From NCBI RefSeq assembly GCF_007679345.1, contig NZ_VEGH01000003.1:186001-250000 (forward strand): DNA of 64,000 nt. Reading direction: 5' to 3'. Below the pieces are notes generated by a model. It worked only from the letters and a program-made list of their open reading frames with translations, had not been told where the DNA came from and made no database searches. The translations under genes were made by a program, and so were the position numbers. Below, piece after piece: positions 58,452 to 63,393 of this stretch (positions are counted from its first letter, which is position 1; each line of letters begins with the position of its first letter). Origin of the DNA: Cellulosimicrobium cellulans (lineage in GTDB: Bacteria > Actinomycetota > Actinomycetes > Actinomycetales > Cellulomonadaceae).

Positions 58452-59486
58452 TCAGGCGTCGCGGTCGGCGTCCCCGGTCGGCGCCGCCGCCTCGACCCGC
58501 CGCTCGTCCCGGCGCGACGCCGCGACGCTCGTCACCGCCGTGAGGCCCAGCGTCACGACGATCACCGCGAGCGACACCCACGAGGGCAGCTCCGGCGCCC
58601 ACCCGACCGGCTCGCCCCCGTTCACGAACGGCAGCGTGTTCTCGTGCAGCGCCTGCAGCACGAGCTTCACGCCGATGAACCCGAGCAGCACGCCCAGGCC
58701 GATGTTGAGGTAGCGCAGCCGGGTCAGCAGCCCGCCGAGCAGGAAGTACAGCTGGCGCAGGCCCATCAGCGCGAACACGTTCGCCATCAGGACGAGGTAC
58801 GGCTCCTGCGTCAGGCCGAACACGGCGGGGATCGAGTCGAACGCGAACAGCAGGTCCGTCGCCCCGATCGCCACCAGCACCAGCAGCATCGGCGTCACGT
58901 GCCGGCGGCCGTCCACCTTCGCGGTCAGCCGGACGCCGTCGTAGCCGTCCGTGGTCGGCAGGAACCGCTGCACCACGCGCACCAGCGCCGGCGCCCTGTA
59001 GTCCTCCGCGGCCTCGTCCGCGTCCTCCCCCACGCCCTCGCGGGCGACCTTCACGGCCGTCCACACCAGGAACGCGCCGAACAGGTAGAACACCCAGGAG
59101 AACGACGCGATCGCCGCCGCGCCGATCCCGATGAACACCCCGCGGAACACCAGCGCCAGGATGATGCCGATCAGCAGGGCCGTCTGCTGGTACTGCCGCG
59201 GTACCGCGAACCGGCTCATGATCAGCAGGAACACGAACAGGTTGTCGACCGACAGCGAGTACTCCGTCAGCCAGCCGGCGACGAACTCGCCCGCCGGGCC
59301 GCCGCCCCACACGAGGGCGACGACCACGGCGAACACGAGCGCGAGCCCGACATACATCCCGAGGTACCGGAGGCACTCCGCCGTCGTCGGGATGTGCGGT
59401 CGCCGGCCCACCACCGCGACGTCCACGATCAGGACGGCGGCAGCGAGGCCGAGCGACACGGCCCAGACGAGCGGGGAGACGTCCAT
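58452..59486 (-). CDS. terC: TerC family membrane protein (second copy)
   Basis: A 344-residue protein, MDVSPLVWAVSLGLAAAVLI, starting 7 bases after the upstream terC paralogue. It has about nine membrane segments, with the conserved acidic sites EYSLSVDNLFVFLLIMSRFA and GATDLLFAFDSIPAVFGLTQ. TerC/Alx proteins export Mn2+ or load it into secreted proteins. It shares the paralogue's transcript and hence its riboswitch-like leader. The central cytoplasmic loop is shorter than in the paralogue and ends differently. Confidence 0.92.
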   Translation of the reverse strand: MDVSPLVWAVSLGLAAAVLIVDVAVVGRRPHIPTTAECLRYLGMYVGLALVFAVVVALVWGGGPAGEFVAGWLTEYSLSVDNLFVFLLIMSRFAVPRQYQQTALLIGIILALVFRGVFIGIGAAAIASFSWVFYLFGAFLVWTAVKVAREGVGEDADEAAEDYRAPALVRVVQRFLPTTDGYDGVRLTAKVDGRRHVTPMLLVLVAIGATDLLFAFDSIPAVFGLTQEPYLVLMANVFALMGLRQLYFLLGGLLTRLRYLNIGLGVLLGFIGVKLVLQALHENTLPFVNGGEPVGWAPELPSWVSLAVIVVTLGLTAVTSVAASRRDERRVEAAAPTGDADRDA

Positions 59487-59493
59487 GCGCGGG

Positions 59494-60534
59494 TCAGTGC
59501 TCCTTGCTGGTGGCGGGCTCCTCGTCCGCGGTCAGGGCGGGAGCGGCGTCCCGGTCGCGCCGGGTCTTGGCCAGGCTCGCGACGGTCGCGACGGTGAGCG
59601 TACCGAGGATCACGAGCAGCGACAGCCACGTCGGGATCTCCGGGGCCCACTCGATGTGCTTGCCGCCGTTGATGAAGGGCAGCTCGTTCACGTGCATCGC
59701 GTGGAAGACCAGCTTCAGGCCGATGAAGGCGAGGATGAACGCCAGACCCTTGTTCAGGTACACCAGGCGCTCGAGCAGGCCACCGATGAGGAAGTACAGC
59801 TGACGCAGGCCGAGCAGCGCGAACGCGTTCGCCGTGAACACGATGTACGGCTCCTGCGTCAGGCCGTAGATCGCCGGGATCGAGTCCAGCGCGAACAGCA
59901 CGTCCGTGGCACCGATCGCGACCATCACCACGAGCATCGGCGTGATGAACCGCTTGCCGTCGATCTTCGTGGTCAGGCGGTCGCCGTGGTACTCGTCCGT
60001 CGACGGCACGACCCGCTTGAGCAGCCGGACCGCGAGGCCGTCCTTCTGCTCGTCCGCGTGCGACAGCTCGTCGTCGTCGTGCTTCTCCTTCGCCAGCTTG
60101 GCGCCGGTGTACACGAGGAACGCGCCGAAGATGTAGAACACCCAGGACCACTGCTCGATCGCCGCGGCGCCGAGCAGGATGAACACCGTGCGCAGCACCA
60201 GCGCGATCACGACGCCGACCAGCAGCACCTTCTGCTGGAACTCCCGGGGCACCGCGAACTTCGTCATGATGATGAGGAACACGAAGAGGTTGTCGACCGA
60301 GAGGCTCTTCTCGGTCACGTACCCCGCGAAGTACTCCGTGCCGTGGTCCCAGCCCCAGACGAAACCGAGCCCCACGCCGAACACGATCGCCAGGCCGACG
60401 TAGACCGCCGACCAGATGGCCGCCTCACGGAACGACGGCGCGTGCGGCGTGCGCACGTGCGCGAAGAAGTCGAACAGGATCATCCCGACGATCGCGACGC
60501 CGGTCGCGATCCAGACCCACAGGTCCACGGACAT
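59494..60534 (-). CDS. terC: TerC family membrane protein (first copy)
   Basis: A 346-residue protein from the ATG at 60534, with GGAGGA 8 bases upstream; the frame extends to 60594 through the leader only by chance. It shows the same family motifs as its neighbour: TEKSLSVDNLFVFLIIMTKF and IGATDVLFALDSIPAIYGLT. The loop KEKHDDDELSHADEQKDG is His/Asp-rich. Predicted role: manganese efflux or loading. Its mRNA leader resembles the actinobacterial yybP-ykoY riboswitch, with the ribosome binding site sequestered in one fold. Confidence 0.94.
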   Translation of the reverse strand: MSVDLWVWIATGVAIVGMILFDFFAHVRTPHAPSFREAAIWSAVYVGLAIVFGVGLGFVWGWDHGTEYFAGYVTEKSLSVDNLFVFLIIMTKFAVPREFQQKVLLVGVVIALVLRTVFILLGAAAIEQWSWVFYIFGAFLVYTGAKLAKEKHDDDELSHADEQKDGLAVRLLKRVVPSTDEYHGDRLTTKIDGKRFITPMLVVMVAIGATDVLFALDSIPAIYGLTQEPYIVFTANAFALLGLRQLYFLIGGLLERLVYLNKGLAFILAFIGLKLVFHAMHVNELPFINGGKHIEWAPEIPTWLSLLVILGTLTVATVASLAKTRRDRDAAPALTADEEPATSKEH

Positions 60535-60542
60535 AGAGCATT

Positions 60543-60674
60543 CCTCCGGTACAGACGGCTGAAGATACGGCTGAGTACCGGAGGTCTCTCCCACCCGTCG
60601 ACCGGGCCGACGTCCCGGGTCGGCGTCGTCGACGACCGTGATGACGGGGGCGTCGTGTCGGGATACTCCCCTCC
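60543..60674 (-). promoter_or_regulatory. yybP-ykoY (Mn2+) riboswitch-like leader of the terC operon
   Basis: On the minus strand GGAGGGGAGTATCC (60674-60661) is followed about 70 bases later by GGGAGAGACCTCCGGTACTC (60592-60573). These are the two conserved blocks known from actinobacterial terC leaders. CCTCCGGTAC (60584-60575) can pair perfectly with GTACCGGAGG (60552-60543), which contains the ribosome binding site of the terC gene at 60534. Alternative pairing of GGAGG and GAGTA in the first block with the same segment would free it. This is a translational on-switch by inference. Confidence 0.8.
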
Positions 60675-60769
60675 ACTGCGTGCGCCAGCATAGGTCATCG
60701 GTCCCATGCGCACCGCACGACCTCGGGCGATGGACGTGTGATCCGCGCCATGTCCGGCGGGGCCGGGGG

Positions 60770-61216
60770 TCAGGTCACGCAGAACTCGTTGCCCTCGGGG
60801 TCCGCCATCACGATCCAGGCGCCCTCCCGCGGGTCGTCGACCTCGCGCAGCACCGCACCGCCGGCCGCCACCAGGGCCGCCGCGTGCTCCCGGGCCGCGG
60901 CGAGCTTCGCAGCCCGGTCCTCGCGGTCCACCCCCTGCCCCGCGGAGTAGCGGACGTCCAGGTGAACCCGGTTCTTCACGGTCTTGCCCTCGGGCACCCG
61001 CTGGAAGAACACCCGTGGCCCCACGCCGCCGGGGTCGACGACGGCGTAGGCCATGTCGCGGTCCTCCGGCCCGATACCCCACGCGTCGAGCGCCGCGTCC
61101 CACGTGTCGAAGCCGGCCGGCGGTGGCTCCTCCACGTAGCCGAGGGCAGTCGCCCAGAACGTGCCCAGGGCGCGGGGCGACCGCGCGTCCATCACGACCT
61201 GCACCTCGAGCGCCAT
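60770..61216 (-). CDS. VOC family (glyoxalase/dioxygenase fold) protein
   Basis: A 148-residue protein, MALEVQVVMDARSPRALGTF, from the ATG at 61216. The two beta-alpha-beta-beta-beta modules contain FWATALGYVEEPPPAGFDTW and RVHLDVRYSAGQGVDRED, ending in WIVMADPEGNEFCV. The first metal-ligand His is replaced in the first strand (VVMDARS). Free-standing VOC proteins are uncharacterised; some bind antibiotics or act as isomerases. Confidence 0.86.
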   Translation of the reverse strand: MALEVQVVMDARSPRALGTFWATALGYVEEPPPAGFDTWDAALDAWGIGPEDRDMAYAVVDPGGVGPRVFFQRVPEGKTVKNRVHLDVRYSAGQGVDREDRAAKLAAAREHAAALVAAGGAVLREVDDPREGAWIVMADPEGNEFCVT

Positions 61217-61287
61217 CCGTGCCTCCGATCGTCGTCGTGGACCGTGTGCCGTAGGTGGTGCGCCGAGCGTCGTGCGTCGTGCGCGGG

Positions 61288-63393
<2,106 letters not shown>

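Follow-up and report, generated by a model that had tools for sequence, protein, structure and literature searches.

A very probable alx-type yybP-ykoY riboswitch in the leader of two tandem terC genes of Cellulosimicrobium cellulans

In the stretch of Cellulosimicrobium cellulans DNA analysed here (64,000 nucleotides, hereafter the window), a conserved leader precedes two tandem terC genes, and the question that this locus raises is what kind of RNA element the leader is and how it may control both genes. The whole feature, leader and both genes, lies on the minus strand. terC1 (60534-59494, with its ATG at 60534) encodes a protein of 346 aa and terC2 (59486-58452) one of 344 aa; since terC1 ends at 59494 and terC2 begins at 59486, the 7-base gap of the original prediction is there, and a Shine-Dalgarno-like AAGGAG is found within the last codons of terC1. 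Both proteins belong to the TerC/Alx family, as profile searches placed them above the curated cut-offs of PF03741 (174.9 bits for terC1 and 168.4 bits for terC2, cut-off 27.8) and of TIGR03718 'R_switched_Alx' (390.6 and 345.7 bits, respectively, cut-off 246.4). Homologues of terC1 (E <= 1e-30) are present in 60 of the 61 genomes of the window's family. Adjacent TerC genes on the same strand were observed in 23 of these 61 genomes, 20 of the 23 pairs being 15-74 nt apart by match ends (88 of 100 homologue rows were used in this count, and the remaining 12 form no such pair by eye). The 5' neighbours on the minus strand (60770-61216 and 61288-63393) encode a glyoxalase-like protein (PF18029) and UvrB.

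The two conserved blocks described upstream of the first terC gene were located in the minus-strand sequence, block 1 (GGAGGGGAGTATCC) at 60674-60661 and block 2 (GAGAGACCTCCGGTACTC) at 60590-60573. Part of block 2 forms a perfect 10-bp pairing, CCTCCGGTAC (60584-60575) with GTACCGGAGG (60552-60543), which covers the Shine-Dalgarno sequence GGAGG (60547-60543), 8 nt upstream of the ATG. With block 1, the block 2 strand can form a competing helix of 5 bp, GGAGG (60674-60670) with CCTCC (60584-60580). This switch strand (CCUCCGGUAC, 60575-60584) is thus shared between two helices: it is the 3' strand of helix P1.1, in the proposed ON state, and the anti-Shine-Dalgarno strand, in the proposed OFF state, its partner there (GUACCGGAGG, 60543-60552) holding both the Shine-Dalgarno sequence and the complement of the switch strand. 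The blocks, pairings and gene gap of the original prediction therefore stand, while the strand and the elements P1.2, P3, L3 and P4 were missing from it.

We aligned the leaders of the best 30 of 60 terC matches (alignment A1, the window's leader included; 29 distinct rows), and the conserved blocks are present in all 30. Helix P1.1 (5' strand GGAGG, 60670-60674, paired with 60584-60580) is 99.3% paired, with two of its five pairs changed on both sides. Next to it is the L1 core GGGAGUA (60664-60670), whose first G also closes P1.1, followed by P1.2, formed by UCCC (60660-60663) and GGGA (60592-60589), a helix supported by covariation (99.1% paired, 4/4 pairs changed on both sides, the first pair occurring as UA, CG and GC across the leaders). 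The 5' strand of P3 (60646-60655) pairs with 60616-60607 (92.0% paired, 7/10 changed on both sides), and in the window itself this helix is imperfect and contains mismatches. The 5' strand of loop L3 (GUCAUCAC, 60638-60645) and, distal to it, the P3.2 hairpin (60618-60637; 94.3% paired, 5/6 pairs changed on both sides) are followed by P4, a hairpin CCCG-GTCGA-CGGG (60594-60606) recognised in the sequence, which varies in length among relatives and is present in the window's fold once the closing helices are forced. GAGAC (60584-60588) forms the L1' strand and the junction with P1.1. No P2 or four-way junction is evident in the window, where only a 4-nt linker (60659-60656) separates P1.2 from P3.

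Across P1.1, P1.2, P3 and P3.2, 95.1% of the cells of the 30 leaders are paired. Changes on both sides are seen in 18 of the 25 pairs, whereas shuffles give 10.6 such pairs on average and none of 500 reaches 18. Sliding the partners by 1-3 columns lowers the pairing to 34-52%, a control that is favoured, since the structure was drawn by eye from the same sequences. In a wider alignment of 61 rows (61 of 62 loci, L033 being below threshold), which was fitted to the model, 20 of the 25 pairs changed on both sides, again reached by 0/500 shuffles. The Shine-Dalgarno helix is 96.5% paired in the 30 leaders and has 4/10 pairs changed on both sides, which one of 500 shuffles reaches; its covariation is weaker than that of the aptamer, because its number of further pair types is equalled or exceeded in 32/500 shuffles. 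In two leaders (L018 and L020) the P1.1 pair 7-149 changed to C-G and the matching Shine-Dalgarno pair is broken in both, a pattern that would fit a strand bound to satisfy both partners while the Shine-Dalgarno sequence stays GGAGG for the ribosome. In another (L022), the paired strand lies 33 nt from the start. As the leader does not stand out by folding energy alone (z -0.46), the support for this structure is comparative.

The residues that build the metal core in solved Mn2+ riboswitches were then compared with those of the leader, at equivalences that we placed by sequence. According to the passages of PMC6754395 drawn on here, L3 reads UCA41AUUC in Lactococcus lactis and ACA48UACU in Xanthomonas oryzae, with N7 of the adenosine contacting Mn2+, and A10 of L1 makes an A-minor contact, accompanied by G9-G93 and G8-A94 pairs. 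The two riboswitches and the window's leader would be alike in an L1 with A10, in an invariant L3 adenosine within UCA or ACA, in G93-A94 opposite L1 and in P1.1 as the switch helix, a role described for the L. lactis member in the passages cited from PMC11087558. The L1 sequence GGGGAGUA is present at 60671-60664 (first G in 58/61 rows of the wider alignment, the others in 61/61), with A60667 at the A10 place. L3 of the window is UCAUCAC, in which the invariant adenosine follows (U/A)C as UCA (60644-60642), C60643 and A60642 being each kept in 60/60 lettered rows; we propose A60642 as the equivalent of A41 in L. lactis and A48 in X. oryzae, and thus as the putative Mn2+-contacting adenosine. 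The G-A-C-C that closes P1.1 opposite L1 is found at 60586-60583 (G, A and first C in 61/61 rows, second C in 58/61), with G60586-A60585 at the place of G93-A94. All seven positions of GGGAGUA (60670-60664) and all four of AGAC (A60587, G60586, A60585 and C60584) are kept in 61/61 rows. By these equivalences, the metal-core positions compared are present in the leader. The L. lactis and X. oryzae structures differ from it in having a four-way junction and in being described, in the parts of the source used, as transcriptional, whereas the window has no evident P2 and its expression platform looks translational.

The check proposed for the leader, a search with the Rfam covariance model RF00080, came out negative at any threshold tried: the window has no match at the gathering threshold, none at E <= 5 (60300-62800) and none at E <= 10 (60530-60700), and the whole genome gave two weak matches, both outside the window (E 2.8 and 9.1). 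Weak matches to Cis8_sRNA, ASdes, mir-4677 and rpfG in the window score far under the respective cut-offs, and we took them for chance hits. To read the negative result, we looked at how RF00080 behaves on related leaders. In the 30 family genomes with the best 30 of 60 terC matches, its cut-off was never passed, and only two of 36 weak matches fell on the leader of a best terC match, namely the orthologous leader in G020, of the window's genus (31.7 bits, E 1.2e-6 per genome, under the cut-off, and matched at the same place in a second search), and that of G001 (15.5 bits, E 0.04). Among 148 genomes of the class, none passed the cut-off and 14 had a match at E <= 0.1. The model matches the E. 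coli control genome (neither the position nor the standing against the cut-off being given) and, only at a permissive setting, C. glutamicum; on 11 loci, it matched L047, L034, L009 and L038 and gave no match to L048 (E up to 1), L003, L012, L019, L049 (the window), L079 and L056.

One of these is the leader of E. coli alx (L048, 1378-1498), which we take to be a member of the yybP-ykoY class and for which an Mn2+ riboswitch was reportedly described by Dambach and co-workers in 2015. A 291-base search with RF00080 gave no match to it at E up to 10, and the E. coli mntP leader scored 41.6 bits, below the cut-off of 45. Since the same model misses the fetched alx leader and scores mntP under the cut-off, we dropped RF00080 as a membership test and regard its miss in the window as weak evidence; the current model seems to miss alx-type members.

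We built two covariance models of our own, R1, built from A1 with the window in the training set, and R2, built from 26 leaders outside the window's genus, their E-values being rough because calibrations were short. R1 gave the window, as a member of its training set, 101.2 bits, and R2 gave it 91.5 bits (E 4.8e-19). Nothing else in the genome matched R2 strongly; the next match is a fragment (E 0.4), and the idea of a second copy was discarded. The E. coli alx leader was found by both models, with 43.5 bits by R1 and 43.4 bits by R2 (E 4.2e-9 in 7 kb), and the E. coli mntP leader by neither, so that the link to the yybP-ykoY class runs through alx-type members. R1 also found, with 25.9-52.8 bits, all seven RF00080-found class leaders that it was given (L033-L038 and L040) out of 14 such loci; the others (L039 and L041-L046) had been left out as chance-like, and one of them, L044, is real by R1, which matched its place (G097:C68) with 45.2 bits. 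The window's leader is like the E. coli alx leader in having GGGGAGUA, a GAGACCU end, no P2 by eye, an L3 of CGUCAUCACG against CGUCAUUACG in E. coli, and a position upstream of a TerC/Alx-family gene, which in E. coli is alx, named as an Mn2+ exporter; it differs in being GC-rich, in its shorter P4 and in that the strand hiding the Shine-Dalgarno sequence is the P1.1 3' strand itself. As the E. coli alx leader has no P2 by eye, and as the passages cited from PMC9495176 describe as canonical a streptococcal member whose junction is three-way, the absence of P2 is not taken as class-defining.

Taken with the covariation and the structural core, these results raise the leader from the riboswitch-like element first proposed to a member of the yybP-ykoY class: with high confidence, we assign it as an alx-type yybP-ykoY (Mn2+) riboswitch, predicted to switch translation ON, with the 3' strand of P1.1 doubling as the anti-Shine-Dalgarno strand, and to serve the terC-terC operon.

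We also looked at how widely the element occurs and in front of which genes. R1 found a match at E <= 0.1 in 96 of the 148 class genomes, and the best match was at E <= 1e-4 in 88 of them, the window's genome included; in the other eight the best match lies at E 1e-4 to 0.1, in several cases as a fragment, and these are left out of the strong matches. Among 296 genomes of the phylum, 63 were matched at E <= 0.01; both the class and the phylum searches used strict filters, by which weak matches were lost. Downstream of 54 fetched matches (the best ones rather than a random sample, with the window included as L049) we identified TerC in 43, a P-type cation ATPase in eight and a Na/Ca exchanger in one; of the remaining two, L055 ends at a contig edge and L071 (1501-1616), a 59.9-bit match, shows neither TerC nor another Pfam family in the downstream frame that we scanned, and may represent either a new regulated gene or a remnant. 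The same leader type was seen in other members of the phylum before P-type cation ATPases, at L056, L061, L063, L065, L067, L068, L075 (1501 to about 1660) and L078 (1208-1325), and before Na/Ca exchangers at L034 and L076. Downstream of the RF00080-found loci (six scanned of seven, L033 being left out) are four GDT1-family genes, one MntP-family gene and one Na/Ca exchanger.

An aptamer of the same class might respond mainly to an input other than Mn2+, such as alkaline pH or Ca2+. Alkaline pH has been proposed as an input for alx, and alx is the closest named relative found; genes for P-type cation ATPases or Na/Ca exchangers lie downstream of some of the related leaders, and Ca2+ is reported for streptococcal mgtA in the passages of PMC9495176 considered here. 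However, 60/60 lettered rows retain the L3 adenosine whose counterpart in the solved structures contacts Mn2+, and related leaders precede one MntP-family gene and four GDT1-family genes. We consider this alternative, which is partly compatible with our assignment, improbable; the probabilities given here to alternative readings overlap with that of the preferred one and are not intended to sum to one. In the preferred reading, Mn2+ would be the ligand of the leader, and the two TerC proteins would export it.

A TANNNT motif is found 11-15 nt upstream of the aligned aptamer start in 30/30 leaders, against 141 of 17044 20-nt windows in the same loci, and in the window it is the -10-like hexamer TATGCT (60687-60692); the search for a complete sigma-70 promoter at the leader gave no match. 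From the position of this motif, the transcript probably begins just before P1.1, a few bases past TATGCT (60692-60687). The aptamer would then fold in the order P1.1, loop L1, P1.2, P3 with the metal loop L3, and P4, no P2 being evident. At high Mn2+, L1 and L3 would dock around the ion through A60642 and hold P1.1 (60674-60670 with 60584-60580), leaving GGAGG free for the translation of terC1; at low Mn2+, the released 3' strand of P1.1 would form the 10 bp with the Shine-Dalgarno region and block terC1. terC2 may follow by translational coupling, through the Shine-Dalgarno-like sequence in the last codons of terC1. According to the passages cited from PMC9294342, bound Mn2+ acts in one of two ways in this class, by exposing the ribosome site or by the formation of an antiterminator, and the window appears to fit the former mode. 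The translational switch model of the original prediction gains support from the covariation and from the structural core, as judged from sequence.

Control could instead, or in addition, act on transcription, by termination or by Rho access, a reading partly compatible with the preferred one: termination is the mode of action of the L. lactis member (PMC11087558, in the passages cited), and Rho effects are invisible in sequence. Yet a simple scan found no terminator-like site in 60300-60900, so that a transcriptional terminator was rejected as a candidate, and the alternative helix covers the Shine-Dalgarno sequence exactly and covaries, which leaves transcription control with a small probability. 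Another alternative, a static hairpin that reduces terC translation and senses no ligand, we consider highly improbable. The Shine-Dalgarno helix does dominate the ensemble predicted for the window's leader (P = 1.00), but a static hairpin would need that helix alone, whereas P1.1, P1.2, P3, P3.2, L1 and L3 are all kept, with covarying helices.

For the translational switch that we favour, the folding energies suggest when the choice between the two helices would be made. In RNA cut before the Shine-Dalgarno sequence, the window's leader can hold P1.1 and P1.2 at 0.4 kcal/mol above the lowest-energy fold, and the probability of P1.1 is 0.25 in the window and above 0.5 in 21/30 leaders. With the Shine-Dalgarno sequence present, P1.1 has a probability of 0.00 in 30/30 leaders by secondary-structure energy alone, which ignores Mn2+ docking; the switch strand holds the Shine-Dalgarno sequence in 27 of the 30 lowest-energy folds and not in the other three, and forcing P1.1 costs 3.5-20.6 kcal/mol (14.2 kcal/mol in the window). 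Since the Shine-Dalgarno helix is, on paper, far more stable than P1.1, the decision is probably kinetic and taken during transcription.

The class is already known, as are its ligand, its switch logic and its association with terC. The leader of C. glutamicum cg2157 (terC) is given as RF00080 with an observed transcript in Table 2 of PMC3890552, the part of that paper used here, where it scored 49.13 bits with the then-current Rfam model; it is alike by this listing alone, as a leader of the RF00080 class upstream of a gene named terC, and differs from the window's leader, which has no match to RF00080 of Rfam 15. In the passages cited, PMC8164766 credits RNA surveys of Corynebacterium and Streptomyces with the detection of yybP-ykoY riboswitches, and PMC3766115 counts yybP-ykoY among the motifs that occur in more than 75% of the taxonomic groups of that study. 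In the open-licence literature, we found no paper that brings yybP-ykoY together with Cellulomonas and, in the open-licence papers searched, no statement of the size of the Rfam-model gap for these bacteria. What may be new, and to which we give an even chance of holding, is a large alx-type branch of the Mn2+ riboswitches, common in this bacterial class and nearly unseen by Rfam, in which the P1.1 3' strand is itself the anti-Shine-Dalgarno strand, so that switching would be a direct, kinetic three-strand exchange, here serving two paralogous exporters.

For these bacteria, the lack of an RF00080 match should not be read as the absence of such a riboswitch, and many metal exporters could be re-annotated if the Rfam family were extended by alx-type leaders. 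For C. cellulans, the terC-terC operon is assigned a likely control by Mn2+.
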